Positions 17,309 through 37,455 of a DNA stretch of 45,069 nucleotides are shown here, piece after piece (position 1 is the first letter of the stretch; every line of letters starts with the position of its first letter). The stretch comes from Nitrososphaerales archaeon (GTDB taxonomy: Archaea; Thermoproteota; Nitrososphaeria; Nitrososphaerales; Gagatemarchaeaceae), in assembly GCA_014874415.1 (NCBI GenBank), contig JACWAI010000011.1:1-45069 (forward strand). The letters are read 5' to 3'. The notes under the pieces were generated by a model that saw only the letters and a program-made list of their open reading frames with translations, was not told the origin of the DNA and made no database searches. A program made the translations under genes and the position numbers.

Positions 17309-18064
17309 TTGAAAAGCGACTCCACAGGCTCGCCCAAGTTGGAAGCCACCGAGAGTGAGATCTCAGTCGGGGAGTTCAAGCTCAACTTCGGATCGATAGG
17401 CGGCGGTGAGCCGCTCCTCCTCCTGCACGGGAGCGAGCCACAGGAGACGTGGCGCGTCTGGGAGCCCCTGCTTCCTCTGTCCGACTCTCATAGGCTCATA
17501 GCCCCGGACCTCCTGGGACACGGCAAGTCGACCAGGCCGGAGGAGACCCCCGACTACACTGAGCAGGCGAGGATAGTCAGGGACCTGGTCGAGAAACTGG
17601 AACTAGACAAGCTCAGCGTGATGGGGGGCGGCTGGGGGGGACAGGTGGCGCTCGAGTTCGCGCTCGAGTGGCCTGACAGGGTCAAAGCCATCATCCTCTT
17701 GGCGAGCGCCTACGACAAGGACCAGCTGAGGAGGCTCCAGAAGCTGAGGAAGCCGACGCTCATCATCTACGCCGAGGACGACATGGTCACGCAGGTCAAG
17801 GCGGGGTATCTCCTGAGGGATGCCATAGGGACGTCCCGGCTCGAGGTACTCGACACCGTTGCGCGGGACCCCAGGTACGACTTCCGCATGTCCCACAGGC
17901 TCCAGAAGTTCAGGGCGCCCCAGGTATTACAGCTCGCTAGGCTCTTCCTCTCAAACCCGGAATCCATGGTGGCGGAGCCCCCCGAGATGGAGAACGAGCT
18001 GAAGGGGATGGAGCTGAGGAAGGAGGACCAGAAGGAAGGGACTGCGCCTACCTCGACGCCATAG
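17309..18064 (+). CDS. Alpha/beta hydrolase-fold protein lacking the nucleophile serine
   Basis: A 251-residue protein with a clear alpha/beta hydrolase fold. LLLLHGSEPQETW is the HG oxyanion segment, LIAPDLLGHGKS (about residues 63-74) the usual P-D-x-x-G-x-G-x-S loop, and PTLIIYAEDDMV holds the normal acid. The nucleophile elbow, usually G-H-S-W-G-G, reads GGGWGG (residues 106-111), so Gly108 replaces the catalytic Ser. The usual GHxP histidine is also not evident. A hydrolase reaction is therefore unlikely; it may be a binding or structural protein. The Lys/Glu-rich C-terminal tail is hydrophilic. The start is TTG at 17309, 17 bases after the deaminase. Its 3' end overlaps the end of rps7 by 17 bases, convergently. 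Confidence 0.8.
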   Translation: MKSDSTGSPKLEATESEISVGEFKLNFGSIGGGEPLLLLHGSEPQETWRVWEPLLPLSDSHRLIAPDLLGHGKSTRPEETPDYTEQARIVRDLVEKLELDKLSVMGGGWGGQVALEFALEWPDRVKAIILLASAYDKDQLRRLQKLRKPTLIIYAEDDMVTQVKAGYLLRDAIGTSRLEVLDTVARDPRYDFRMSHRLQKFRAPQVLQLARLFLSNPESMVAEPPEMENELKGMELRKEDQKEGTAPTSTP

Positions 18065-18659
18065 CCACTCGTTCCTGTTCGTTCTTCTTCCTGACAGAGT
18101 AGCTGTTCGCGTCCGCCGAAGCGGCCTGGATTATCTCGTCGGCGAGCACCTCTTCGACTGTCCTGGGGGAGCCGAACGCCGCCTCTCTGACACCCTCTGA
18201 CATGAACCTGAGGGCCAGGTCGACCCTGCGGACGGGAGAGATGTCGACTGACTGGTGGTAGACCACTCCCCCGTAGCTGAGCCTCGTAGTGTCCTCGTTG
18301 GGAGAGGCGTTCTCGATCGCCTTCACCAGCTGCTGGACCGGGTTCTGACCAGTCTTCAGCTCGATTATCACGAATGCCGTCTTCACTATGTTCATCGACT
18401 TCTGCTTCTTGCCGCCCATGCGCCCAGTATTTTTTGCGTATTTCTTCCCGAAATGCATGCTTTCGTTCACGAGCCTCTCGACGATGTTGACGCGCGTCTT
18501 CCCGAACTTCCTGTGCTCGTGCCTGCCGCCAGAATGTGGGATGAGCATCGGTTTCAGGTTGATGACCGTCTGCAGCCCCGGGTCTTCGATTTTCACCCCG
18601 GTGAGGTCCCAGCGCTCCCAAAGGAGGAGGTTCGGGTATTCGAGGGATTGCCTGCTCAA
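18048..18659 (-). CDS. rps7: 30S ribosomal protein S7 (uS7)
   Basis: A 203-residue archaeal uS7. VNIVERLVNESMHFGKKYAKN, then KQKSMNIVKTAF, VVYHQSVDISPVRRVDLALR and the C-terminal YSVRKKNEQERVA segment are the conserved 16S rRNA-binding parts. It nucleates the head of the small subunit. The N-terminal extension before the conserved core is usual for archaea and eukaryotes. It begins 3 bases after the stop of rps12, the conserved str-operon order. Its C-terminus overlaps the hydrolase-fold gene on the other strand by 17 bases. Confidence 0.96.
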   Translation of the reverse strand: MSRQSLEYPNLLLWERWDLTGVKIEDPGLQTVINLKPMLIPHSGGRHEHRKFGKTRVNIVERLVNESMHFGKKYAKNTGRMGGKKQKSMNIVKTAFVIIELKTGQNPVQQLVKAIENASPNEDTTRLSYGGVVYHQSVDISPVRRVDLALRFMSEGVREAAFGSPRTVEEVLADEIIQAASADANSYSVRKKNEQERVAMASR

Positions 18660-18662
18660 GGA

Positions 18663-20630
18663 CTATCTCCTCGGCTTCTCCTTGCGGCCGTAGACGAGCT
18701 CGTTGAGAGATACGCCATTGACCTTGAAGACGGTCCAGCGGACCCCGGGTATGTCCCCCATTGCCCTCTTCATGGAGCCCCCGATCCCCTGCAGCATGAC
18801 CTCGTCGTGCTCGTCCACGAAGTTAAGGGCGCCGTCCCCCGGAAGGAAAGCGGTTACCTGTTTGCCGTTCTTCACAATTTGCGCGCGAATGCAATTCGAT
18901 GTCAGGAAGCCGTTAGCGAAGAAGTTGTGGCTATCGTTTGCTATTGTGATATCTTGGAGCCTCGTGCTGGGTCTCTTGTTCACGCTCGTCACTTCGTCCC
19001 AGACTAGACCGTTCTTCGGAAGGTTTGTAGTTGCGGCCACTATCCACTTGTCGAAATTCTCGCCTTTGGCGGTCGTGTGAAGCAAATCAAGGTTCTGGAC
19101 TCCGTGCCACATCCACGAATTTACATTGCCTGTTGTGACCCAAGAGAATCCCTCTCTTTGGAGGGTTTCCGCAATTTCTCGGTAGGAAAGCTTCTCTGCT
19201 CGAAGTTGAACTGCTCTGGCATAGGCTTTCTTGGTTGCGTTCGTTCTTGAAACTCTTAGTGAGATATATTGAAAGGCGTATCTCGATAGAGTCTGCTTTT
19301 TCTTGGAGTACTCATAGCCGATTCTTCCGTAGAGTTTCAACAGATTGACGTGGGTCGATGAAATAGCCATTCGGATTTTGAACGAACGAGTCCCGTCTTT
19401 CCTGAAGACTGAGGGCCTGATTCTCAACCCAGCGACCTGAATATCGAAGTCGGAGAGCATCCGTTGGATATCGAGCATGAAATCTACTCCTGACTCTATC
19501 AAGTCCTGCCTCTTGCTCACTTCGAACGTCGGCGGCTGGAATGTTGAATTCCTGTGTCTTGGTTTCTCCAGCTCGCTCCCGAAATATGATGACAGGAACT
19601 CCTTCTTCAACCAACCAGGGCCGTTCAGAATCCAGTCAGGGACCCCGTACGCCTTGTTAGCCTTGGCTCCATCGGGCACTCCTAGAGCTTGGAGCAGTGA
19701 GTAAAGAGCGATGGACGTGCATGACACGTAATGATATGAGCCCGAAATCGTTCTTGTTCCGGATTCGGTTGTGACTATGCTTGTCGACGAGCCCTCGTAA
19801 ATCGGGGAAACGTGGAAACCCAGAAATTCGATGTCTCCGGTAACGCTCGCTAGGTCGTCCGGGTCGCCCGAACCCATGATCTTACCCGCATATCCGGTGC
19901 CCGAACTCTCGTAACTCGTGTGGCCGTCTCCGAAGATATGACCTACAAGTCTGGTTAGCGCCGGGAGTTTGGGATTGTCATATCGGAGTGGCAGAAGGCC
20001 CCTTTGATTAAGGGCCGAGATGACTCCGGACCTGTCCGAATTCGGTGGGATACCGTGAATGACGGAGCCTTCGTCCAAGATGAGTGATGATGCATCTTCT
20101 CTCTTTAGGGGGTCTGAAGGCATCACAACGACCCGGTCACCAGGCTTCAGGTTCCTTGCCTCTACAATCCCCCTCTCCCCATAGAATGGATGGTCACCAC
20201 TCGCTTGCACTCGTCTTCCGGAGAGAGCAATTACTTCGTACACGTCGCTTTCGGCAGTTTCCGACTTGGTGAGCTCGAACGAGTCGACGACTCTCGATTC
20301 TCCAATGGTGAAATCCTTCTGGTCGAAGTATGCTACGTCAGGCCTGAGTCGAGATTCTACGATTTCCCCCATCGTCAAAAATGTGTCATCGCTCAGGAGC
20401 ACCTTCGTCTCTGGGGTTACGCATTTACGGATCGCAGAGTTTGGTTGCTTTGACTCGATCCCGACCTTCTCGAGGACGATACCCCTCGCCTGGGGAGCGC
20501 CTTCCAACGGGTCTGACTTGTAGTCGAGCCCCAGCTTCCGCCTCTTGTACCACTTGTTGGACCAGCGGAGCCTCTGGCGCTTGTTAGCGACCTGCCTCGC
20601 AGCGAACTCTCCGCGTGGTGACCCTGCCAT
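18663..20630 (-). CDS. rps12: 30S ribosomal protein S12 (uS12) precursor interrupted by an intein
   Basis: A 655-residue precursor. Residues 1-69 and 580-655 form a normal archaeal uS12 of 145 residues. The junction after splicing would read [17 protein letters not shown], continuing to [17 protein letters not shown]. uS12 lies at the decoding centre and the PNSA-RK loop contacts the A-site codon-anticodon helix; the bacterial equivalent carries streptomycin-resistance sites. The intein (residues 70-579) is inserted exactly in this loop, before a conserved Cys. A TATA box right after the nusA stop gives this gene its own promoter and supports the ATG at 20630. There is no second S12 copy in the window, so splicing must work for translation unless a copy exists elsewhere. 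Confidence 0.95.
18894..20423 (-). other. Intein in uS12 (510 residues) with LAGLIDADG endonuclease domain
   Basis: Residues 70-579 of the precursor. It starts with Cys ([13 protein letters not shown], block A). Block B reads VQASGDHPF, with the conserved His and Ser in place of the usual Thr. The first LAGLIDADG motif is [13 protein letters not shown] (about 226-237). The second motif appears decayed ([13 protein letters not shown], missing the usual aspartate-glycine). It ends with block [14 protein letters not shown] followed by Cys+1. The penultimate residue is Ser instead of the usual His, which may slow the final cyclisation step. Its layout and many short stretches match the RpoB intein. 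Base composition is visibly more A/T-rich than the S12 exteins. Confidence 0.92.
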
Positions 20631-20667: not shown

Positions 20668-21123
20668 TTACAGCTCGCTCGTGATCTGGACGTTGCTTAT
20701 GTCGAAATAGCGCTTCGCGAGGAGCCTCACCTTCTCGGCGTTTTTCCCCCCGAGGCCGAGCACGGCCCCCTTCTTGCGCGGGTCGACAACGACCACCACC
20801 CCCTTGGTCCCGTCCAGCCTGTCGCTCACCCTGATCTCCTGGACGAACTTCGCCCCCAAGGAGTTCCTGACCAGCCCTTCCACGTCGTCCGCCCACTCGA
20901 CCACCTCCACCGGCCGCCTGACCGCTCTTTCGATCTTCTTGACCGAGGCTCCTTCCTTCCCGATGGCGAGCCCCATCTGCCCCTGTGCGATAACGAATAT
21001 GACCCGGTCCCTCTTGTCGTCGATCACGCAGTCCCTGGCCGTCGCTCCCGTCATGCCCTGGAACATGGATATCAAGGAAAGCTGGTCCGAAGTCAGTTTG
21101 ATCTCTGTCGTTGACCCTTTCAC
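20668..21123 (-). CDS. nusA: Archaeal NusA-like KH-domain transcription factor
   Basis: A 151-residue protein consisting of two KH domains only, the archaeal form that lacks the RNA-polymerase-binding N-domain and S1 domain of bacterial NusA. KH1 has GLAIGKEGASVKKIE (about residues 51-65) and KH2 has AVLGLGGKNAEKVRLL (about 119-134), both with the GxxG RNA-binding loop. It is thought to act in transcription elongation/termination by binding RNA. Its ATG overlaps the stop of rpl30e by 4 bases, and rps12 follows 37 bases downstream, the conserved archaeal gene order. Confidence 0.93.
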   Translation of the reverse strand: MKGSTTEIKLTSDQLSLISMFQGMTGATARDCVIDDKRDRVIFVIAQGQMGLAIGKEGASVKKIERAVRRPVEVVEWADDVEGLVRNSLGAKFVQEIRVSDRLDGTKGVVVVVDPRKKGAVLGLGGKNAEKVRLLAKRYFDISNVQITSEL

Positions 21124-21422
21124 CTGGCGAGGAGCTTGACGTCCGAGTCGCTCACGTTGCGGACTGCGATGGCTGAGACCTTGTATGGGCGCCCGATCAG
21201 CCTTGCGAGCTCCACAGACGACTGGGTCAGCTCGACCACTGGGACGCCGTGCTTCTTCGCCTCTTCCCTCAGCCTGGCTCCAAGCGCTGCAGGTATAGAC
21301 CTGGTGCAGAGGACTGCTTTGCTCCCCTTGACGGCCGCTATGCTCTCCTTCGCCCCGACGGCCGACTTGCCCCCCTTCATGGCTTCCTTGAGCACCTTCG
21401 CGAGCTGAGCGTTTTCCACCAT
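21120..21422 (-). CDS. rpl30e: 50S ribosomal protein L30e (eL30)
   Basis: A 100-residue protein of the L7Ae/L30e RNA-binding family. KGGKSAVGAKESIAAVKGSK is the N-terminal helix-strand and GVPVVELTQSSVELARLIG the C-terminal helix that recognises kink-turn RNA. Ending in AIAVRNVSDSDVKLL, it is of normal family length. It sits between rpoA (5-base gap) and nusA (4-base overlap), exactly as in other archaeal RNA polymerase operons, which confirms the assignment. Confidence 0.93.
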   Translation of the reverse strand: MVENAQLAKVLKEAMKGGKSAVGAKESIAAVKGSKAVLCTRSIPAALGARLREEAKKHGVPVVELTQSSVELARLIGRPYKVSAIAVRNVSDSDVKLLAR

Positions 21423-21427
21423 GTCGA

Positions 21428-24400
21428 TCAGCTCATGTAGAGGTCTATCATCCCGGTCCCCACGGGTATCGGAAGACCGACGATGACGTTCTCGGTGACC
21501 CCCTTGAGGTCCTCGACCTCCCCCTTCACCGCGGCCTCGGCGAGTGTCGGCACCGTGATCTCGAACGCCGCCCTGGCGAGGACGCTGCTCTTCGTCCCTG
21601 CGATGCCGTGCCTCCCTATCTGCTGTATGTAGCCCTTCGAGGTCATGAGGTCTGCGACGAGGAATATGTGGCGTATGTCCACTTCCAGCCCCTGCTCGTC
21701 GAGGGTGCTCATGAGCTCCCTTACGAGGGTGGCCCGCGCCGCCTCTATGCCGAGCACCTGGGCGACCTCGTGCACGTTGTTGGTGTATACCCGCGTCGGG
21801 TCCACGCCCTGCACCTGCACCACCTTCCCCAGGTTCGACCCGGCAGTCTGGATGAACCAGTCCTCCCCTTCCTTCACGACTGTGACCCGGGTGATGCCTG
21901 GAATCCCCTTGAGCTTCATGTTGAGTATCTTGTTCCTGAGAGTGAAGAGGGCGGATAGGTCGGCGTCGGGCATGCTCACGTGGATGACGTTGGCGTTCCT
22001 CTTGTCCTGCTGGACCTTCCTCTTCCCTGTCTCGACCACCTTGGCTATCTCCTCGGGGTTGGTGTCCCTGTCGGCCATCATCTCAGGGCCCAGGTGCAGC
22101 TTGATCCCCTCCGTCGGGTCGACTTCGCTGAAGGCGACAACGTTCCCCACCTTGGTGAAGAGTATCTCCTTCGCCACCTTGACCGCCTTCTCGTTGCTTA
22201 GGGCGTAGTCCTTTGTCAGGTAGATGTCCATTGACGGCGTCGCCGGGATCTTCCTCGCGTCGACAAGCTCCATGAGCCTGGGGAGACCGAGGGTGACGTC
22301 CCTCTCCCTGACCCCTGCGAAGTGGAACGTACGTAGTGTGTTGTGTGTGACGACCCCGTCGGCGGTGACGAACGTCTCCAAGCCGGGGACGCTGAAGTCG
22401 TAGACCCTGTCCCTGGAAGCGTCGAGGGTCTCGATCGCGACTATTTCGTCCCAGGTTACGTCCTCATGGAGCAGGCTCCTGAGGTGATTCAGTTCGCGAG
22501 AGGCATCGACCCCCCTTTTGCCGGCCATGTCCTCGAACTCGTTGACATACCGAGCTAGTGCCGCCCTTCCTATCCTCTGCCGTCTGGTGAAATTGCTCAC
22601 CCTCCTCGTGGGCATGCCTAGACGCTTGGCGAGATCGCGGAGGATTGTTCCAAATCCACAGGTCATGTCCAAAGTGTCAAGAGTATAGCTCGCCTCGTTT
22701 GGACGGCAGATGGCCTCCAACGCCGCCTTCTTTTCAGGGGAGTTCAAACCCACCTTGTCCCTGAAGACAGGCGCGAACCTGGCAGGGACCCAGAGCGCGA
22801 AGCTCTCTCCATCCCTGACCTTGCTTGCAAATATGCCGAAGCGGCCAAGGAGCAGACAGACTCCGTCGATGAGTTCCTTTGACCTGGAACTCGCCCTGAT
22901 AGCCCTGTTCCCGGTATCTACGTACCCATCCCCATCGAAGTAAGCCCGCAGCAACATTCCAACGAAAGCGTCGCTGGCCCCAAGAGCGAATTCAGGGATG
23001 TGCTTGCCCACAGAAAGTTTGCCGCAGGTCTTCACCAGGAGCTCAGAGAGCAGTGAGGAGCGGAGTTGAAGGTCGTGCCCGTGGCCGAAGCCTCGATAGT
23101 TGTCCTTCTCGTCGAAGCCTATGCCGAACCTTCTCGCGAACGACCGCCCCTCTTCCAAGAACGTTTCGTCTGTATTCGACAGGCTGAGGAAGTACTTGGA
23201 ACCGTAGCCTTCCGAAAGGTAAGCCCCGAAGAGCCAGCCCAAGCCTGTGTCCAGGCTCATCGTTTCAGGGAGGCCCGAGTGCGAATGGTTCTGATATGGA
23301 TAGACGAAGCCCTCGTCGACTGCGAAGGAGGCTCTTCCGGCGAGTTGGTTCCGCAGCTGGTCGGGCCTGACAGGGACCTGATAGGCCACCCCATACCCCT
23401 TCTTCCAGTCACCCCCGAGTCCACGTGCCTTCGCCAGTTCGCTCCCGAACCAGTGAGTCGTCCTGGAGAAGACCTGATCCAAACCCAACCGCTCTGTGGG
23501 GTTAGGAATAGGGAGGTGCTTCAGGATCGGAATCATGTCCCCGGCTCTTAGTTCGCGCCCGAGGATCGGGACTAGCTCGCCGTCGAGCCTCGTCACGAAC
23601 GAATGATTGTCGGTGGCCACGATGGTTCTCCCAGACCTCGTCCGCACACGGATCAATGGACGGAAGTGGGTGTGGCGACTGACGGAGCGGAGTGGCTTCC
23701 ATTCGATTCCTCCCGCCGAGTTGAGCGACGGTACTTCAAAGCCCGACCCTTCCGAGAGGTCGCACCATTCGGTCTCGCCTTCCTTCACAGGCGGGATCTT
23801 CTCCATGAGCTCGTCGACGAAATCGCCGATCTTCACGGTGCGGACCTGCCCCTGCGCCCGAATTATCACCGACTCGTCCTTCGAGATGCTCATCTGAGTG
23901 CCAGGCTCACCTATGGACTGGGCTGCCACTATGCCTGAAGCCTCCCCCGGCTCGACCCTGGAGTAGTCCAGGGCCTCGGCGACCTTCTCCATCGTCTCCT
24001 TGAGCCCCTCCTCCGTCAGGTGCGAGTTCCCGAGCTTCTCCCTCAGCTCCCTTACCAGCCTGTCGTTGAGGGACGGCTCGTACTTCTTCATCAGCTTGTC
24101 AAGCCCGTCGGCGTCGACCTTCGCCTTGGACTTGTGCGACAGCTCCTCGGTCTCGATCAGCCTGTCGAGGTTGCTGGGGCGGCCGTGGTCGCTCTTGGCC
24201 GGGTCGACCCCGTCTTCGCCGTAAAGGAACTGGATGATGTGGCCGTGCGGGTCCCTGACGGTCAGGTCGTATTCGACCTTCAGGTGCTCTAGGGCGTTGA
24301 CGAGCCGCCTCTGCATGTAGCCGCTCTGCTGGGTCCTGACGGCCGTGTCGACCAGCCCTTCGCGGCCTCCCATGGCGTGGAAGAAGAATTCCGTCGGGGA

Positions 24401-26770: not shown

Positions 26771-29700
26771 CTACACCTTGTCCTTGAGCTGGAGCCGCGG
26801 TGCAATGTTCAGGCTCATCATCTCCTGCAGGAGTAGCTTGAAGGCGTACGCCACGACGACGGTGGATATCTTGGCCTGGTCGCCGTCTATCTTGCAGGTG
26901 TACTTCCTCTGCTTTGCGTCGTAGTAGGCGATGAGGCCGCACTTCTCGCAGACGTAGATCTCTGTCTTGTCCGCCTCGTCGAGCAGCCTGTCCTTCAGCA
27001 CCATGGAAGCCCCGTAGGCGATCAGGCAGTCCCTCTCCATCTCTCCGAACCTGAGGCCGCCGCCCCTTGCCCTCCCTTCCGTGGGCTGCTTGGTGAGCAT
27101 CTGCACCTGTCCGCGAGCCCTGGCATGGATCTTGTCGGCGACCATGTGGTGGAGCTTCTGGTAGTAGACCACCCCGACGAAGACGTCGGCGGCGAACTTC
27201 TTCCCGGTCTTGCCGTCGTACATCACCTCCCTCCCGGTCGCCTCGAACCCCCTCGAGCGGAGGACCTTCTCCATCTCTTCTATGCTCTCCCCTGCGAAGG
27301 CCGAGCCGTCGACCGCGGACCCGCGGAACGCGGCCGCCTTGCCAGCGATCGATTCGATGAACTGGCCCACGGTCATCCTGGAAGGGAAGGCGTGCGGGTT
27401 GATTATCACGTCGGGGACGATCCCTTCTGCAGTGTAGGGCATGTCCTCCTGGGGGACGACGAGCCCGATCACCCCCTTCTGGCCGTGCCTGGAGGCGAAC
27501 TTGTCACCGATCTCGGGGACCCGCATGTCCCGCACCCTGACCTTGAACATCTTCCCTCCCTCGACGTTCTCCGTCATGAAGATGGAGTCCACCACCCCTG
27601 CCTCCGACGGGCGCACCGCGACCGACGTGTCCCTCCTGTAGGGGCCCTTGATCTCGAATTCCTTGTATTCCTCCATGAACCTCGGAGGGCTGGTCCTTCC
27701 GATCACCACGTCCCCGCCCGCCACCTGGGATTCGTGGGCGACCACGCCGTCCCCTTCGAGGAGGCGGTAGAACTTCTCCCCGCGATAGCCCCTGATGTTG
27801 GACTCTGCTGCCGGGACCTCGAATGTGTCCCTCATCCCTCCCAGGTACTGCTTAGCCTCCCCGTCGTAGAGCCTGTAGAAGAACGACCTGGCCAGCCCTC
27901 TCTCGACGCTGGACTTGTTCATGATGATGGCGTCCTCTATGTTGTATCCTTCGAAGGACAGCACGGCCACGACGCAGTTCTGTCCGAGGGGACGCTCGTC
28001 TATCTTGAGGAGGTCGAGGGTCCTGGTGCGGACCACCGGCGCCTGCGGGCTCACGAGCAGGTGCTGCCTGACGTGAGGGGATATGGGGTACGTCGGGGAG
28101 CTGAATCCGAGGCTCTGCTTTGCCATGGCCGACTCGTATGTGTTCCTGGGGGACTGGTTGTGCTCGGGGTAGGGGATGATGGAAGCGGCTATGCCGAACA
28201 TGGCTGCGGGGAAGAGCTCCATGTGGGTGTTCTTGGTGGTTACCTCTTCGGGGCCCATGGAGACGAGGCAGTTCTCCTCCTCGTTGGCGTCTATGAGCTC
28301 GATCACCCCCTGCTCAACCAGGTCGCGCCAGGAGTTCTGGCCCGCCGTCACCTTCTCGATGAGGTCCGGGTTGAGGAGAGGCCTGCCGCTTTCGATCACT
28401 ACGAGCGGCCTGAGGACCCTCCCTGAGCTGAGGCTGATGTATATGCGCGGGTACGCCTTGTCGTTGACCGGGGAGATGTGGAGGACGCTCGCGCTCGGGT
28501 TGATCTGACCTTCCCTTCTGAGCTTCCTGAACGCCTTCGCAAGCCTCTCTCCGTCGTCGACGTAACCAAGGAACCTGCCGTCCATGAAGATCCTGCACCC
28601 ACCCACCTGCAGCTTCTGGTCGGAGTCGCGTATCTGCTTCGCGCCGAGCTCCCAGAGCTTCTCCTCGACCTCCTGCGAAGGGACGCTGACAGAGATTATC
28701 GCAGAAAGCGCCAGGTTCTTTACGAGACCGCAGTTGTGAGTTACGAAACCATTTGCGATGAAGTTATGTGTATCGGCTGTTGTCGTGACGTCTCTCACAT
28801 CACTGACTCCTGTGACAGGTTCCTTCAGAACGACCTGTTCCAGGACGTAGTCGTCGTTTCCGATGGCGACGACATTCCTCTCGCTCCATTCGTTGAATGG
28901 CAGGAGGAGCGACTTCGGTTTGTACGTATGCTCATACCTTGCCCCATAGACCCAATGTTCGATGGTCTTCCCTTTCTCACCCAAAGTAAGGGCAATCTGT
29001 GATGGGAACTGGCCCTGGTTGTAGAGGTTCGCGGCAGTCTCCTTCTTCCCGATGCGTTGGCGTATGAGTTGGCGGGATATTCTGAGGTATTCCCCGGCGA
29101 GTGCAGACCGACGTTGCTTCGTCCTAGAATACCGATAACCTATTTTTTGGGTGACAGCCTCCAGAGTGGTCTTGGAACCTCTCAAGACGACAGATATTCT
29201 CGAAACCAGTTCACCGTCAGCCCGCTTGTAATCTGTCTTCGAAACTATCCGTGACGTTTCGCAACCGAACTCTGCCAGCAGCTCACTGAGCTGCTTGGCC
29301 AACGCCAATCCACTGCTTCTCAATCGTTCGACCTTGTGGAAGTTGATTGGTGGCATTCGGATGGAGTATTTCCTTCCCTTCAAGTGATTAATGGCGGGCT
29401 TCGGTCCATCGCCTCCAAGGTATGCCGAAAGGAATTCCAATTTTATTTGTGAGGACCCGTTTATGATCCAATTTGGAATCAGGTATCCAGTGTCTGTCTT
29501 CTTGCCCTTGGGGGCACCCAGCTTTTCAAGAAGAACGCACAGGGATTTCGAGTAACATGTAACCGTGTAGACCTCCATTTCGTACTCCCTTTCGGGACGT
29601 ACAATGCGCTTCTTTTCGAACTCCATCCTTGATTTGAAGCCGAGTACTTCCAAGTCGCGTTGGACTTCCAGTCCGTCGTCTTTGGTTCCCAATGAGAATT

Positions 29701-31630
29701 CTACGAAGGGCGAGCTTCCCATGTGGAGGTGAGCATCCGAGAAGACCTCCCCGATGATTCGGGCGAGGATAGGCAGTTTCGGATTGTCTTCTGCGAGCGG
29801 CAGGAGATCAAGTCTCTCGAGTTCCGATGGGACGAAGACCTTCTCCCACTTACGCCGATTCTGGAATCTCCTCGGAGTCAGGAGGGTTCTCTTCGAGGAT
29901 TTTGAGCGACCTCCGACCCGGTCCAGCGTTGGGTATACTACGACCCTATCACCCGGTTTGATTTCGCCGGCCGGCTTCCAGGCCAAATTGTCCGTGAGTA
30001 GCGGATGATCTTTCGTGGCGATGAGTTCCCTACCTGCTTCAGTGACCACCCTGTAGACGGGGGTGCCATCGTGGGAGGGGTCAGTTTTGATGTATTTCGC
30101 TATCGTCGTCTGAGCCATGTCGTTCTGTAGTATGTCGACGGTGGCGAGTTTTGTGCCCCGCCAGTTATCGCCGATTTCTGCAATCGTGGCTTGAGTGCGG
30201 TCCGGCAAGAGAACGTTTGTGGACGGCACGACGCAGTTGACGCCCTCAGGCGTTTCCGACGGGCAGATCCTGCCGAAGTGGGTCGCGTGGAGGTCCCTTG
30301 CCTCGAAGTTAGGTTGGCTCCGGCTGAGGGGGGACTGGACCCTCCTGAGGTGGCTGAGGGTGCTCAGGTAGTTCGTCCTGTCGAGGAGCTGCGTGACGCC
30401 TACCTTCCCCCTCCCCCAGTTCCCCGTCGCTATGGCGTTGTTCAGCTTGTCCGTGATTATGCCTGTCCTGATGGCCGCCCCGACGACGTTCCCCCCGCGC
30501 TTCTGCCCTGTCCTTTCGAGCTGGTACTTCATGTCCCTGACGAGGTTGCGGAACGCTGTCCGGAACAGGTCGGCGAGCATCTGCCCGGCGAACTTGATCA
30601 CTTTGTTCCCGTAGTGGTCCTTGTCGTCCGCCCCGATCCATCCGAGCCTCAGCTCGAGGAGCTTGCAAGCGGCCTCCCCCATGAACATCGACTTGTCGAA
30701 GCGCCTGTCGTCCGTCTTGCCAAGGTGAGGCAAAAGCCCCCAGTCCAGCATGGACAGGGCGCGCTTCACCCTGAACTCCTCAAGCATGCCGTGGGCGACC
30801 CTGTTCCCGATGAACACGAGCGCGTCCTTCTCGGTGGGCGCTTCGCTAGCCTTGTCGAAGGACACCTCAAGGAGGTCCTGGATCTCCGCCTTGGGGGAGA
30901 CCGCGTCGGCTATCTCCTTGTCCGACTTTATCCCCAAGGCCCGCATGACGATGACGAAGGGGAGGTCGACGGGGCAGCTGGGCACCTTCACGTTGATGGC
31001 CCCGTCCTGCTTCAGGGTCAGTTCGAGCTTCGAACGGTATCCGACGACGGACGAGTAGACCCTCGACTTGTAGGTGGTGGCCCCTGCGAGCTTCTCGGAG
31101 TCGACCAGTATCTTGTTGGGGGAGAGGTCTTCCAGCCCGACTATGACCCTCTCGGCGCCGTGGATGATGAAGTAGCCGCCCGGGTCGTTCGGGTCTTCTC
31201 CCGATTCTATGAGCTGGTCCTTGGAACGGTTGGAAAGCTGGCAGAGCTCGGACTTCACCATCACAGGGAGGTCTCCGACGTGCTGGCGTGTCGTGTCCCT
31301 CGGGAGCCCCTCCTCCTCGATGGTCATCTCCAGCAGGATGGGAGCGGAGTAGGTGAGGTTCCTCAGCCTCGACTCCATGGGGAGTATGCTGCTTACCGAG
31401 CCGTCTATCTCGACGACCCTAGGCGAGCCCAGCGTGAGCCTGCCGAACTTTATCTTGTAGGGGGTGCTAACAGTCTCGATATCCACATCTCCGATTTCGT
31501 CGACGATGTTCTGCAGCCCCCTTGTGACGAACTCGTTGTAGCTGTTCAGGTGCTGCCTGGCCACCCCTTCCCTCTGGAGGAGGTCGCTCAGGATGATCCA
31601 GGAGTTTGAAGTCGCGATCTGCCTGCTCAA
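26771..31630 (-). CDS. rpoB: DNA-directed RNA polymerase subunit B (unsplit) precursor with intein
   Basis: A 1619-residue precursor; without the 501-residue intein RpoB is 1118 residues, the normal unsplit archaeal length. The N-terminal lobe has GYFIIHGAERVIVGLEDLSPN. HFGRICPSETPEGVN (to residue 465) is the conserved fork-region motif, interrupted by the intein and resuming as CGLVKNLALSA. Later parts include GYNIEDAIIMN, KFASRHGQKGVIGL, GGLRFGEMERDCLIAYGA and the C-terminal zinc site CEKCGLIAYYDAKQRKYTC. It forms, with RpoA, the catalytic cleft. It starts just 2 bases after the rpoH stop and is followed 3 bases later by rpoA. Confidence 0.97.
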   Translation of the reverse strand: MSRQIATSNSWIILSDLLQREGVARQHLNSYNEFVTRGLQNIVDEIGDVDIETVSTPYKIKFGRLTLGSPRVVEIDGSVSSILPMESRLRNLTYSAPILLEMTIEEEGLPRDTTRQHVGDLPVMVKSELCQLSNRSKDQLIESGEDPNDPGGYFIIHGAERVIVGLEDLSPNKILVDSEKLAGATTYKSRVYSSVVGYRSKLELTLKQDGAINVKVPSCPVDLPFVIVMRALGIKSDKEIADAVSPKAEIQDLLEVSFDKASEAPTEKDALVFIGNRVAHGMLEEFRVKRALSMLDWGLLPHLGKTDDRRFDKSMFMGEAACKLLELRLGWIGADDKDHYGNKVIKFAGQMLADLFRTAFRNLVRDMKYQLERTGQKRGGNVVGAAIRTGIITDKLNNAIATGNWGRGKVGVTQLLDRTNYLSTLSHLRRVQSPLSRSQPNFEARDLHATHFGRICPSETPEGVNCVVPSTNVLLPDRTQATIAEIGDNWRGTKLATVDILQNDMAQTTIAKYIKTDPSHDGTPVYRVVTEAGRELIATKDHPLLTDNLAWKPAGEIKPGDRVVVYPTLDRVGGRSKSSKRTLLTPRRFQNRRKWEKVFVPSELERLDLLPLAEDNPKLPILARIIGEVFSDAHLHMGSSPFVEFSLGTKDDGLEVQRDLEVLGFKSRMEFEKKRIVRPEREYEMEVYTVTCYSKSLCVLLEKLGAPKGKKTDTGYLIPNWIINGSSQIKLEFLSAYLGGDGPKPAINHLKGRKYSIRMPPINFHKVERLRSSGLALAKQLSELLAEFGCETSRIVSKTDYKRADGELVSRISVVLRGSKTTLEAVTQKIGYRYSRTKQRRSALAGEYLRISRQLIRQRIGKKETAANLYNQGQFPSQIALTLGEKGKTIEHWVYGARYEHTYKPKSLLLPFNEWSERNVVAIGNDDYVLEQVVLKEPVTGVSDVRDVTTTADTHNFIANGFVTHNCGLVKNLALSAIISVSVPSQEVEEKLWELGAKQIRDSDQKLQVGGCRIFMDGRFLGYVDDGERLAKAFRKLRREGQINPSASVLHISPVNDKAYPRIYISLSSGRVLRPLVVIESGRPLLNPDLIEKVTAGQNSWRDLVEQGVIELIDANEEENCLVSMGPEEVTTKNTHMELFPAAMFGIAASIIPYPEHNQSPRNTYESAMAKQSLGFSSPTYPISPHVRQHLLVSPQAPVVRTRTLDLLKIDERPLGQNCVVAVLSFEGYNIEDAIIMNKSSVERGLARSFFYRLYDGEAKQYLGGMRDTFEVPAAESNIRGYRGEKFYRLLEGDGVVAHESQVAGGDVVIGRTSPPRFMEEYKEFEIKGPYRRDTSVAVRPSEAGVVDSIFMTENVEGGKMFKVRVRDMRVPEIGDKFASRHGQKGVIGLVVPQEDMPYTAEGIVPDVIINPHAFPSRMTVGQFIESIAGKAAAFRGSAVDGSAFAGESIEEMEKVLRSRGFEATGREVMYDGKTGKKFAADVFVGVVYYQKLHHMVADKIHARARGQVQMLTKQPTEGRARGGGLRFGEMERDCLIAYGASMVLKDRLLDEADKTEIYVCEKCGLIAYYDAKQRKYTCKIDGDQAKISTVVVAYAFKLLLQEMMSLNIAPRLQLKDKV
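28733..30235 (-). other. Intein in RpoB ETPEG motif (501 residues) with LAGLIDADG domain
   Basis: Residues 466-966. It begins CVVPSTNVLLPDRT (block A) directly after ETPEGVN. Block B is [23 protein letters not shown] follows, and the LAGLIDADG motifs are ILARIIGEVFSDAH (about 622-634) and FLSAYLGGDGPKP. A helix-turn-helix-like stretch PSQIALTLGEKGKTIEHW lies in the second half. It ends THNFIANGFVTHN before Cys+1, a canonical splice junction. It resembles the S12 intein in block order and in many short shared stretches (NPKLPxLxR, GYxYSxxKQ). The DNA is visibly more A/T-rich than the exteins. Confidence 0.93.
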
Positions 31631-33162: not shown

Positions 33163-36100
33163 CTAATGCCCCGATTTGGACAGTCGTCCAAAAACGTACG
33201 GTAGGACTCCGCCCGACTGGACGTATTGCATTTCGGTGTCGTTGTCCACCCGGACAAGCGTCCTGAACCTCTTTTCCCCGGAGGCGCTCTTTGCAGTCAC
33301 GTCGGCCCACTGCCTGGGTGAGGTCATCGACTCGATGCCGACAATGTCGAGGGTCTCCTCGCCAGTGAGCCCCAGCTGCTTGACCCCCTCCCCTTCCTTG
33401 AACTGGAGAGGGATGACCCCCATGGCTACGAGGTTGCTCCTGTGAATCCTTTCGAAGCTCTCGGCGATGACGGCCCTGACCCCCTGCAGCTTCGGCGCCT
33501 TCGCCGCCCAGTCTCGCGAGCTCCCGGCGCCGTACTGCTTCCCGGCAAGGACTACCAGAGGAACCCCCTCTCGGGCGTATTTCGTCGAGGCGTCATAAAT
33601 CGTCATGATCGCGCCGTCAGGAAAGTGGGCGGTAAAGCCCCCTTCCTTGCCTTTGGCGAGCAGGTTCTTGATCCTGATGTTGAAGAAACCGCCCCGGACC
33701 ATGACCTCGTGGTTGCCGCGCCTGCTCCCATAGGTCGAAAGGTGGAGCAGGTCGACCCCTCTTTCTTTGAGGTAGACCCCCGCCGGGCTGTCGACGGGTA
33801 TCGTCCCGGCCGGCGAGATGTGGTCGGTGGTTATCTTATCCTCGAAGACGGCGAGCACCCTGGCCCCGGAAATGTCCCGCTTCGCCGACTCTGTCTGGGA
33901 GGGGTCGAACCAAGGTGGGTTCCGGATGTAGGTGGAGTTGGAATCCCAGTGGTACACTTCGTCTTCGAAGGAGGTGAGCTTCTCCCACCGCTCGTCCCCC
34001 TTCATGGCGTCTGCGTACCGTTTCTCGTAGAGGCCGGAGTTGAGCGAAGCCTGGACCGTCCGCTTGACCTCTTGGAGGGAGGGCCACAGATCCCTGAGGA
34101 AAACCATCTTGCCGTTGGTTCCCTTTCCCAGCGGCGTGGACGCGAAGTCGAAGTCGATCCTCCCGGCGAGGGCGTAGGCAACCACCAGCATCGGGGACAT
34201 GAGGAAAGATCCCCTGACTAGTGGGTGAATCCTCCCGTCAAAGTTCCTATTCCCCGACAGGACTGCGACCGAGTATATGTCCCGCTCTTTGATCTCCTTC
34301 TCGACTTCTGGAGCTAGCGGACCGCTGTTGCCGATGCAATTGTGTACTGCGACTGTCCCTGCGGTGAACGCGTGGACACCCTCAACAGTCAGGTCGTAGA
34401 CCTGCCTCTGGCCAGCAGACCGACGGTCAATAACCCTGAGGGAGAATGTCGGTAGTGTGGTTGCCTCCTTTCCTACGCAATAGTGCTTGGCGTGTCCCGC
34501 ATCATTCCCCTTTCGGAGTGGGGCAAACCAATCCCGCACACCGAGCTCAGTGAACAGCTGAGCAGGCGAAGGGAAGTGGCAGTTTTCTCGATGCAGCGGG
34601 TAGAACTTGCGCCCGCTCTCTTTCGGAAGTCGGGAGAAACGGTCGTATCCCTCGAGCAGTGCATAATGCGGAGACACAACAGGAGGCAGCGATTCTTCCT
34701 CCTCACGGCCCTTGAGCGAAACCGCAGCTACCTGACGGGCTTTCGAGAAAGAGAGCGTTGGTTGGGACCGGTGCAATTGCTCCAATCGGGCAGACATCCA
34801 AAGCCTCTGCACGTGGATTCCTTCTATCAACCTCCAGTAGACTGCCGCTGCGCTTGCGTGCAGCATCTTGTCGACGCAATAACGGTAGCCGACTCTTTCG
34901 ACGAAAGAGAGCCCGTCCGTGAGCTCCAAGCGCACCTCTATGCGGGGGATTCCGTCGATTGGCTCGGGGTAGGTCGTATTGCTTCTTCGTGTCGGGTAGT
35001 CGTAGATTCTGGCCCTCTCGGCTTTGACCCCGCACTTTACCAGAAGTTGAACAAGTTCATTCATGAACTCTCTTGACCGAACCAAATGCACGGGAATTGT
35101 GCTTCGCGAATACGCAGGGGTCTGGAGGCTTGAGTCTTCATCACTTGTGCCCCAGTAATGCAGAGTGGGCGCGTGTCCATCCGCCCCGAAGAGACCGCCA
35201 AGGAATTCCCGTACCACAGCTACAGGGCAAGAAGACTCTAGAATGAACGCGGGAAAAGTCGGCGGCTGATCAATCTTTGTTCCGACCTGCACTCCAGGAA
35301 CAGCGGCCATCGCCTTCGTGAGAACCGAGGGCAGGACAATCGACCATTTTCGCTCATCGTATCGGTTTCCAACTGGGTGAAGACCAGTGATTGAATCTAT
35401 GTCATTAAGGATCATCTCACGATCCACCGCCTGGCCTGCGTTTATTCGGCCCTGCCCAAGGACACTTATCGAACCGTCGCCTTGAAGGAATCCTAGCAGC
35501 CGCGCGAACGCGAGGGTGCGGATTCTCTCCGGTTCAGAATCCATTCGGAAGGCCAGATTGCCCGCCCGAAGGACATACCCTGTTTCGTCGTTGCCTGGGG
35601 CATCAAGTGGGCCTTCGAGCCCTGCGATGACGCGATCTTCGCCGAGATTGAGTTGGTCAGCCCTCACCCAGCGCCCGTCTGAACAGAGAATCCTGTGATC
35701 GGGTGTGCAAACAAGCGTCCGACCGTCCTGCAGAACCAATGTTACACATTCCCGCAGGCCGTTGTTCATCAGCATCGACTGCCTGGCGATGCCGAGCCGG
35801 TTCTGGGAGCTAGGACCGAAGAGCAAGCCACCGCCAGCGTTGGGCATCGCTTCGATGGGCCTGGTTGTCCCATCCGCCATCAAGATGGGGGTGCCTTCTG
35901 ATATGCACGTGGTGCACCCGTAGCCGACCAGGACGAACCCGAGCTTGTCGAGATAGCCCAACAGGTCAGAATTCTGGAGGTAATCGGTGACGACCGTCGA
36001 GCCCGGGGCCAGGCTCGGCTTGACCCATGGCTTTACGGAGAGTCCTGCTTCGACAGCCCTCTTGGCGATGAGCCCTGCCCCCACCATGACCGTCGGATTA

Positions 36101-37425
36101 GAGGTGTTTGTGCAGCTAGTGATGGCCGCTATCACTACGGCTCCGTCGGAAAGGCCGGCGTGAATCGGGCCGTCTTCCTCCAGCATCAGCTGAGCCCTGG
36201 TTGCCGATGACGAGGTTGGCGAAGATGCTGCGCGGCGCTGGTCAAGTAGAGAGCGGGTGAAGCCAGGGACCGAGACGAGCGTGTGGCGCTCCTCGGGGTT
36301 CCTGGGTCCTGCTATCGAAGGCTCGATCTTGTCTAGCTCTAAGTGGATGACTTCAGTGTAAACAGGCTCAACGTCGTTGACGAAGAAACCGAATTGCTTC
36401 GCGTACCTGGTTACGAAGTCGACGTGCGCCTTCGGCCTCGCTGTCCCGGTCAAGTAGGCTATGGTCGCGTCGTCGACAGGGCAGAACCCTGCCGTCGCTC
36501 CGTACTCGGGCGACATGTTGCCAATGGTGGCCCTGTCCGGTACCGACAGCTGGCCGTACCCTTCCCCGAAATATTCCACGAACGAGCCTACCACGTTCTT
36601 CTCCCTGAGCCTCTCGGTGACGGTCAGGACGAGGTCCGTAGTGGTAACCCCCTCCTTCAGGCTGCCCGTGAACTTCACCCCGAACACTTTCGGTATGGGC
36701 ATGTGGTACGGTTCCCCAAGCATCACGGCCTCGGCCTCGATTCCCCCTACCCCCCAGCCGAGGCACCCCAATCCGTTCACCATGGTTGTGTGGGAGTCGG
36801 TCCCGACTAGAGTGTCTGGAAACGCTTCCAGTTTCCCTCCAGCGTCCCCGACAGCGACCACATGCGAAAGGTACTCGAGGTTGAACTGGTGGCAAATCCC
36901 TTTGCCAGGAGGGAAGACCCTCATCCCCTTGAAAGAGGACTGAGCCCACTTCAGTAGTGAATAGCGCTCCGAGTTCCTTTCGTACTCCTTCTCGAGGTTC
37001 ACGGCGAAAGCCATGTCGTTCCCCCAGGCGTCCACCTGAATCGAGTGGTCGATGACGAGGTCTACGGGCACCTTCGAGTTAACGCTGTCAGTCCTCAAAC
37101 CAGCTGCCTTTGCAGCATCCCTCATGGCGGCGAGGTCCACAACCAGGGGCACCCCCGTGTAATCCTGGAGCAGGACCCTATAGGGCATGAAGGGCGTCTC
37201 GGAGTCTACAGACTTCGGCCACTGGGCGAGGGCGTGGGCTGCCTCCAGGGCCCCATGGACCCTGTTGGAATGGCGGGCCGCGTTCTCGAGGAGGATTCGG
37301 ATGGAATACGGAAGCCGCTCAATATCGTACCCCATATCCTTGAGCTTCAGGATGTTGACTGCGCTGGCCTTGCCTGTCGGGAGGTCGACGTTCTCCCTCA
37401 GCCGGTCAAGAGTTTCGAGAGGCAT
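33163..37425 (-). CDS. acnA: Aconitate hydratase (AcnA type) precursor with intein
   Basis: A 1420-residue precursor; without the 523-residue intein the enzyme is 897 residues, the normal AcnA/IRP1 length. It isomerises citrate to isocitrate in the TCA cycle with a [4Fe-4S] cluster. The cluster ligands are Cys438 (ITSCTNTSNP), Cys504 (GYGCTT) and the Cys that follows the intein (CIGNSGPL). Substrate-binding motifs include GTDSHTTMVNGLG, and GSSRDWAAKAP in the swivelling C-terminal domain. The intein lies between the second and third cluster ligands, so an unspliced chain cannot form the proper site. A TATA box is placed about 35 bases before the ATG at 37425. The gene is divergent from a small membrane protein. 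Confidence 0.96.
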   Translation of the reverse strand: MPLETLDRLRENVDLPTGKASAVNILKLKDMGYDIERLPYSIRILLENAARHSNRVHGALEAAHALAQWPKSVDSETPFMPYRVLLQDYTGVPLVVDLAAMRDAAKAAGLRTDSVNSKVPVDLVIDHSIQVDAWGNDMAFAVNLEKEYERNSERYSLLKWAQSSFKGMRVFPPGKGICHQFNLEYLSHVVAVGDAGGKLEAFPDTLVGTDSHTTMVNGLGCLGWGVGGIEAEAVMLGEPYHMPIPKVFGVKFTGSLKEGVTTTDLVLTVTERLREKNVVGSFVEYFGEGYGQLSVPDRATIGNMSPEYGATAGFCPVDDATIAYLTGTARPKAHVDFVTRYAKQFGFFVNDVEPVYTEVIHLELDKIEPSIAGPRNPEERHTLVSVPGFTRSLLDQRRAASSPTSSSATRAQLMLEEDGPIHAGLSDGAVVIAAITSCTNTSNPTVMVGAGLIAKRAVEAGLSVKPWVKPSLAPGSTVVTDYLQNSDLLGYLDKLGFVLVGYGCTTCISEGTPILMADGTTRPIEAMPNAGGGLLFGPSSQNRLGIARQSMLMNNGLRECVTLVLQDGRTLVCTPDHRILCSDGRWVRADQLNLGEDRVIAGLEGPLDAPGNDETGYVLRAGNLAFRMDSEPERIRTLAFARLLGFLQGDGSISVLGQGRINAGQAVDREMILNDIDSITGLHPVGNRYDERKWSIVLPSVLTKAMAAVPGVQVGTKIDQPPTFPAFILESSCPVAVVREFLGGLFGADGHAPTLHYWGTSDEDSSLQTPAYSRSTIPVHLVRSREFMNELVQLLVKCGVKAERARIYDYPTRRSNTTYPEPIDGIPRIEVRLELTDGLSFVERVGYRYCVDKMLHASAAAVYWRLIEGIHVQRLWMSARLEQLHRSQPTLSFSKARQVAAVSLKGREEEESLPPVVSPHYALLEGYDRFSRLPKESGRKFYPLHRENCHFPSPAQLFTELGVRDWFAPLRKGNDAGHAKHYCVGKEATTLPTFSLRVIDRRSAGQRQVYDLTVEGVHAFTAGTVAVHNCIGNSGPLAPEVEKEIKERDIYSVAVLSGNRNFDGRIHPLVRGSFLMSPMLVVAYALAGRIDFDFASTPLGKGTNGKMVFLRDLWPSLQEVKRTVQASLNSGLYEKRYADAMKGDERWEKLTSFEDEVYHWDSNSTYIRNPPWFDPSQTESAKRDISGARVLAVFEDKITTDHISPAGTIPVDSPAGVYLKERGVDLLHLSTYGSRRGNHEVMVRGGFFNIRIKNLLAKGKEGGFTAHFPDGAIMTIYDASTKYAREGVPLVVLAGKQYGAGSSRDWAAKAPKLQGVRAVIAESFERIHRSNLVAMGVIPLQFKEGEGVKQLGLTGEETLDIVGIESMTSPRQWADVTAKSASGEKRFRTLVRVDNDTEMQYVQSGGVLPYVFGRLSKSGH
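34339..35907 (-). other. Intein in aconitase cluster motif (523 residues) with LAGLIDADG domain
   Basis: Residues 507-1029. It starts CISEGTPILMADGT (block A). Block B is LVCTPDHRILC. Its LAGLIDADG motifs are FARLLGFLQGDGS (about 642-653) and FLGGLFGADGH (about 740-750), both with intact Gly-Asp-Gly or Ala-Asp-Gly, so the nuclease looks functional. It ends VHAFTAGTVAVHN before Cys+1, a canonical junction. Its sequence is not closely like the other three inteins, indicating separate acquisition. The DNA is visibly more A/T-rich than the exteins. Confidence 0.93.
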
Positions 37426-37455
37426 TTTCGACCTGATTCCGCGCCATTGCGGCCG

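Follow-up and report, generated by a model that had tools for sequence, protein, structure and literature searches.

The window analyzed here, the whole 45,069-nucleotide stretch of contig JACWAI010000011.1 from a Nitrososphaerales archaeon, carries on its minus strand a single open frame of 655 codons (18663–20630) that encodes ribosomal protein uS12 interrupted by an intein. The first 69 and last 76 residues of the frame belong to uS12, and a 510-residue insert lies between them. The N-extein (20424–20630, minus strand, 69 codons) ends in PNSAIRK, and the C-extein (18663–18893, minus strand, 76 codons plus the stop) begins at Cys +1 with CIRAQ; both were delimited by domain matches and by alignment with empty alleles. 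The intein itself (18894–20423, minus strand), which is 3.5 times as long as its 145-residue host protein, runs exactly from Cys1 to Asn510 and is followed by Cys +1, as supported by domain matches, its ends, trees, and a predicted model. PF00164 matches the frame in two halves (E 1.8e-38), and the uS12 halves score 222 bits with NF003254 (cut-off 196) and 214.5 bits with TIGR00982 (cut-off 140.2). Between these halves lies a PF14890 intein domain (E 3.9e-11, 43.4 bits, cut-off 35.8), and the insert also matches TIGR01445 (35.0 bits) and TIGR01443 (22.2 bits), each above its own cut-off. The first-pass annotation had placed an insert of about 510 residues here, between PNSAIRK and a Cys of uS12, and called it an intein; its coordinates prove right to the base, and the domain models and exact ends bear the identification out. 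The in-frame position, the terminal residues, blocks B and F, and the predicted Hint fold confirm the insert as a class 1 intein.

The gene directly downstream of S12 encodes uS7 (18048–18659, minus strand) and adjoins S12 in all 32 loci that were read. Upstream are a NusA-like (KH) gene (20668–21123, minus strand) and an L30e-like gene (21120–21422), both named after the usual make-up of the archaeal operon. Two separate inteins occur in the same gene string, one of 517 aa in a fused RpoA'/A'' (22340–23890, minus strand; Ser1, THN|T) and one of 501 aa in RpoB (28733–30235, minus strand; THN|C), the latter only distantly related to the S12 intein (A2 profile match, E 5.6e-83). Among relatives, an insert at the RpoA site was seen only in G034 (29 loci with an RpoA match), and no RpoB insert was seen among 27 loci with an RpoB match, some of them partial. 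The window holds four inteins in all, the fourth being a 523-aa element in an aconitase-like protein (34339–35907, minus strand, within frame 33166–37455) between GCTT and CIGNSGPL. The Cys right after it is presumably a cluster-binding Cys, and the unspliced enzyme should lack its Fe-S cluster. The window's genome (G000) is intein-rich, with 13 open frames matching PF14890 at E 0.01 or better. Inspection by eye placed further inteins in MCM, PolB, RadA, and a topoisomerase VI A-like protein, as well as near Cys motifs in a radical SAM protein and in the beta subunit of a 2-oxoacid:ferredoxin oxidoreductase.

The N-terminal splicing region of the S12 intein spans approximately residues 1 to 110 (20094–20423, minus strand), a limit of our choice, and contains Cys1 and the block B residues Ser75-Gly-Asp77-His78, as located by TIGR01445 and a residue table. 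The C-terminal splicing region, whose limit at residue 466 was likewise chosen by us, covers residues 466 to 510 (18894–19028, minus strand) with Asp491, His499-Asn500-FFANG, Ser509, and Asn510, located by TIGR01443 and the residue table. Between them, alignment and inspection by eye revealed two LAGLIDADG-type motifs, the first at residues 158 to 168 (19920–19952, minus strand; Asp166 in GDG) and the second at residues 277 to 286 (19566–19595, minus strand; Glu284). A helical segment at residues 405 to 440 (19104–19211, minus strand) appears HTH-like in the model, with helices predicted at 374–409, 414–423, and 431–440. The Pfam LAGLIDADG models gave no match to the window's S12 intein by sequence, and the endonuclease call therefore rests on the motifs and the predicted fold. 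The model itself has a mean pLDDT of 93.0, and its best solved Foldseek matches are the TliVMA intein (7qss, E 1.3e-17), PI-PfuI (1dq3, 2.9e-14), and PI-SceI (4.1e-9). Its splicing domain superposes on the Mtu RecA intein at 2.0 A over 104 columns. Whole-length Foldseek superposition is loose (TMq 0.26–0.30, rmsd 17 A), with a good fit domain by domain, and the predicted fold thus resembles that of bifunctional homing inteins.

Across the 25 complete S12 inteins collected here, Cys1, Asp77, His78, Asp491, His499, Asn500, and Asn510 are kept in every one, and Cys +1 is present in all 26 carriers read. Both LAGLIDADG acids, Asp166 and Glu284, are retained in 23/25. The block B position is Ser in 22/25 and Thr in 3/25, and the penultimate position is occupied by Gly in 15, by Ser in 8, and by Lys in 2, never by His (0/25). 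A penultimate His is usual in class 1 inteins and is not obligatory; since exceptions are known, its absence does not exclude class 1 membership. Either this absence or the Ser in place of Thr in block B can slow splicing of the S12 inteins.

In an alignment with Escherichia coli S12 (41% identity), the insertion point falls just after the equivalent of Lys51, counting Met as 1, which is four residues after Ser47 and eight after Lys43 in the same numbering. These residues lie at the decoding site, Lys43 (Lys42 without Met) is a streptomycin site, and the loop bearing the insertion touches the codon–anticodon helix. The protein uS12 is universal, essential, and made in large amounts. In solved ribosome structures retrieved with an intein-free S12, archaeal uS12 chains have 142 to 147 residues, and none of the 60 matches listed contains an insert. 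In a single model of the unspliced precursor, built from a shallow alignment and without a control, the intein is confidently predicted and the S12 parts mostly have pLDDT <55, which is suggestive of S12 being unfolded before splicing. Small-subunit assembly would presumably wait on prior splicing of S12.

The first-pass annotation had named an uninterrupted, expressed second rps12, or an earlier report of this insertion, as what would speak against its reading. When all six frames of the window's genome (1,688,941 bases, 114 contigs, 91.6% complete) were searched, just the two halves were recovered and no second S12. Scans with the S12 family found none in 24 of 24 carriers, a set that comprises the window's genome, four others of its genus, and 19 more (all but G994 and G1103 of the 26); in the 19, every match fell within the interrupted frame. 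In one of these, G035, the scan shows one S12 half only, and its contig begins inside the intein. Two carriers (G443 and G500) are one-contig genomes, 99% complete, each with a single interrupted S12; because a second S12 is absent there, an unspliced product would leave them without uS12. It is extremely unlikely that the intein no longer splices, with S12 functioning in two pieces or coming from another gene. The atypical penultimate residue and the incompleteness of the window's genome are in keeping with such a loss, but all directly reacting splicing residues are kept in 25/25 inteins, the carriers scanned lack a second S12, and the splicing part is under selection. The expectation that intein-free relatives would align across the junction without a gap also held, as the 24 intein-free S12 proteins read from the window's family (f1) show 0 gaps and no detectable insert and are 86.5 to 96.3% identical to the window's spliced S12. 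The other six intein-free S12 proteins of f1 were judged from single strong matches.

An S12 match was obtained in 364 of 400 genomes drawn from the order. Within f1, S12 is interrupted in 8 of the 38 genomes with an S12 match, namely five of the window's genus (G000, G002, G024, G026, and G027) and three of other genera (G033, G035, and G162). No S12 intein was seen elsewhere in the order among the matches listed, where S12-positive genomes were judged from single strong matches (E 4.3e-43 or better). Split or partial matches in G060, G198, G220, and G308 were traced to contig overlap, insert-free frameshifts, or an intact junction and were rejected as interrupted S12 genes, while the contig of G384 starts past the insertion site and leaves that genome outside the count. 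A scan of public genome contigs with only two peptide patterns returned 22 loci, of which 17 are S12 inteins at the same codon, six of them in f1 genomes already counted. These 17 come from Thaumarchaeota and Nitrososphaerales MAGs, Bathyarchaeota, two Crenarchaeota soil MAGs, Diapherotrites, Woesearchaeota, Micrarchaeota, Aenigmatarchaeota, and one 'Euryarchaeota' MAG. Profile searches added five carriers in family f38, which belongs to the same phylum as the window (398 genomes gave 6 S12 inteins, including the window's), G994 (2 in 279 genomes, including the centre), and G1103 (6 in 250 genomes, including known ones), while three carriers found among 87 genomes around G727 had all been counted already. 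In total, at least 26 genomes share this S12 insertion site and its intein family, the intein being complete in 25 of them, and no stop interrupts the reading frame across the intein in any of the 26 carriers, as far as the contig of G035 extends. These carrier counts are lower bounds, as few candidates per genome were scored. The database search proposed in the first-pass annotation has thus yielded a same-site family, of which the window's intein is one member rather than a unique case. Among IMG/VR viral contigs there are 12 weak relatives of the S12 intein, none in an S12 gene, and a viral origin was rejected on this ground.

Most carriers are metagenome-assembled, which might invite the explanation that the interruption is an assembly artefact or chimera. 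The probability of this is negligible, and we regard it as refuted, given that the same codon and an open frame recur in 26 genomes sequenced in different projects, including two one-contig assemblies. Chance and assembly error are excluded by the E-values, the 26 same-site genomes, and the 24 gap-free empty alleles.

The history of the element was examined by comparing an intein tree with a host tree of 31 rows built from the S12 extein, S7, NusA, L30e, RpoA, and RpoB, without G035. The rows of the intein tree were hand-chosen, and partial inteins (including that of G035) and some RtcB matches were left out. Intein presence requires at least 6 changes on the host tree, and because 197 of 500 label shuffles do as well, presence does not follow descent. 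The genomes G000 and G024 pair as closest hosts (support 88/83, 95.0% identical), and that such a close host carries an intein only 48.3% identical points to horizontal movement of the element. The window's intein pairs instead with that of G026 (60.1% identical, support 100/100), whose host proteins are 88.9% identical. The intein data reject the host pair G000 + G024 (AU p 1.2e-5), just as the host data reject the intein pairs G000 + G026 (AU p 3.4e-66) and G024 + G002 (6.2e-7). In the opposite direction, the AU test does not reject a single clade for the five inteins of the window's genus (p 0.084). Sporadic presence and the conflict between intein and host trees together indicate that the S12 intein moves horizontally.

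Vertical descent of the intein from an early archaeon, followed by repeated loss and without homing, could explain why the DPANN S12 inteins group together (95/91) and why the inteins of Nitrososphaeria and of Bathyarchaeota/Crenarchaeota MAGs do so as well (96/95). However, the intein tree within f1 decisively contradicts the host tree, and the inteins diverge far beyond their hosts (48% versus 95% for G000/G024). We consider such inheritance very unlikely as a general account, and at the family level these tree comparisons reject it. At the deep level, the intein branches follow host groups, in keeping with old vertical descent and with long-ago transfers alike. The S12 element is a genuine, probably active or recently active homing intein with a presumptive DNA-cleaving activity.

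The best NCBIfam relative of the S12 intein is NF038162 (intein-containing RtcB), which matches with 287.6 bits over the intein part only and does not reach its whole-protein cut-off of 1150 bits, RtcB included. In the intein tree, 24 of the 25 S12 inteins form one branch (support 100/98), near which lie inteins from RpoB and RpoA' in DPANN and Asgard MAGs. The remaining one, L108 of G994, floats; a single clade of all 25 appears in 22% of bootstrap trees (AU p 0.55), and a single source for all 25 is neither rejected nor shown. Two Diapherotrites genomes, G727 (L163/L062) and G731 (L162/L066), contain related RpoB and S12 inteins on one contig, approximately 7 to 8.5 kb apart, and intragenomic spread between the two genes is possible in them. 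That the element jumped from one gene to the next within the RNA polymerase/ribosomal gene string is a plausible conjecture at most. In G727, the RpoB frame shows another intein end, HSFIANGFVTHN, located 10 residues upstream of the RpoB intein, and in G982 (L110 and L130) a single RtcB frame holds two adjacent inteins that belong to one family. One intein family is spread over RtcB, RpoB, RpoA', and S12, the last three being neighbouring genes.

In G614 and G697, Ser and Ala stand at the LAGLIDADG acid positions, and the intein has lost approximately 65 residues from the helical stretch that follows the endonuclease, including the HTH-like segment 405–440, while every splicing residue is kept. 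Their endonuclease is decaying with the splicing part staying in place, a pattern to be expected were splicing needed but not the endonuclease. The Nei–Gojobori dN/dS between these two is 0.07 in the N-terminal splicing part versus 0.22 in the middle. Over the whole S12 intein, dN/dS is 0.08 to 0.28 in 5 of 5 pairs tried, with dS >1 and hence saturated in two of the five.

This purifying selection, together with persistence in very distant archaea, may also be read as a sign that the intein is a regulator, in which splicing made slow or conditional by the missing penultimate His gates 30S assembly and the cell gains. The absence of that His from 25/25 S12 inteins fits this reading, the more so as the window's two RNA polymerase inteins end in THN. 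However, that His is also missing from most of the related RtcB, RpoB, and RpoA' inteins (SN, GN, or KN), so that its absence looks like a family trait; selection on splicing alone would give the same dN/dS; most relatives do without the S12 intein; and its presence is sporadic, no more clustered than shuffled labels (197/500 as low). A regulatory role is therefore improbable in our estimation, though it is the likeliest of the alternatives considered. If true, it would amount to a control layer on ribosome biogenesis in several archaeal phyla while the element homes. The open-access literature searched holds no description of splicing control of ribosome biogenesis.

We favor, with high confidence, the interpretation that a homing class 1 intein occupies the only rps12 found and splices itself out to leave normal uS12, as judged from sequence. 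The 655-residue precursor would be translated whole from the interrupted rps12, after which the Hint domain would excise itself via Cys1, Cys +1, and Asn510 and ligate PNSAIRK to CIRAQ. Splicing would restore a normal 145-residue uS12 able to join the 30S subunit. The nested two-motif LAGLIDADG endonuclease presumably recognises the highly conserved rps12 of intein-free archaea, and the element would be copied into the empty rps12 by double-strand-break repair. Each S12 molecule of a carrier should need protein splicing before taking its place, and because there is no second S12 copy, failure of splicing should be lethal. The locus offers a natural, testable system for asking if ribosome biogenesis can be limited or regulated by protein splicing, and it shows that even a core ribosomal protein as short as 145 residues can host a homing intein.

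The first-pass annotation held inteins in ribosomal proteins to be rare or undescribed. As to description this stands, since the open-access literature, to which the search was confined with subscription surveys outside it, yielded no intein in any ribosomal protein; as to rarity it needs tempering, given an S12 intein in 26 genomes. It is likely that S12 is unreported as an intein host, with a listing in an intein database possible. The element is of a known kind in a very striking and apparently unreported host. In a table excerpted from a 2023 survey (PMC10643990), taken here by what we read as its column for single-intein genes, inteins are few in the relevant groups (10 in 56 Crenarchaeota genomes, 1 in 18 Thaumarchaeota, and 1 in 2 DPANN).

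Comparing the S12 intein with known systems, the TliVMA intein, PI-PfuI, and PI-SceI likewise combine a Hint domain with a LAGLIDADG endonuclease, as in the predicted S12 intein fold. However, they share only 11 to 15% identity with it, reside in V-ATPase or ribonucleotide reductase, and differ in domain orientation. Archaeal RtcB inteins (site GYDIN|CGVRL) are similar to the S12 inteins in size, layout, Cys1/Cys +1, and the HNF-ANG block, and mostly lack the penultimate His as well, whereas their host protein and site are different and they form a branch of their own (30/30 rows, support 100/99). The branches nearest to the S12 inteins are those of archaeal RpoB inteins at ETP(D/E)GP|CGLVKN and RpoA' inteins at NP|CxPYNADFDGD, which again have other host proteins, and the window's own RpoB intein is just a distant relative. 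Excerpts of a study of Halobacteria (PMC4071816) describe inteins as mobile elements with a homing cycle, their presence being sporadic and at odds with host phylogeny, as for the S12 intein. In those excerpts, ribosomal proteins serve only as the reference tree, whereas the S12 intein has one as its host.
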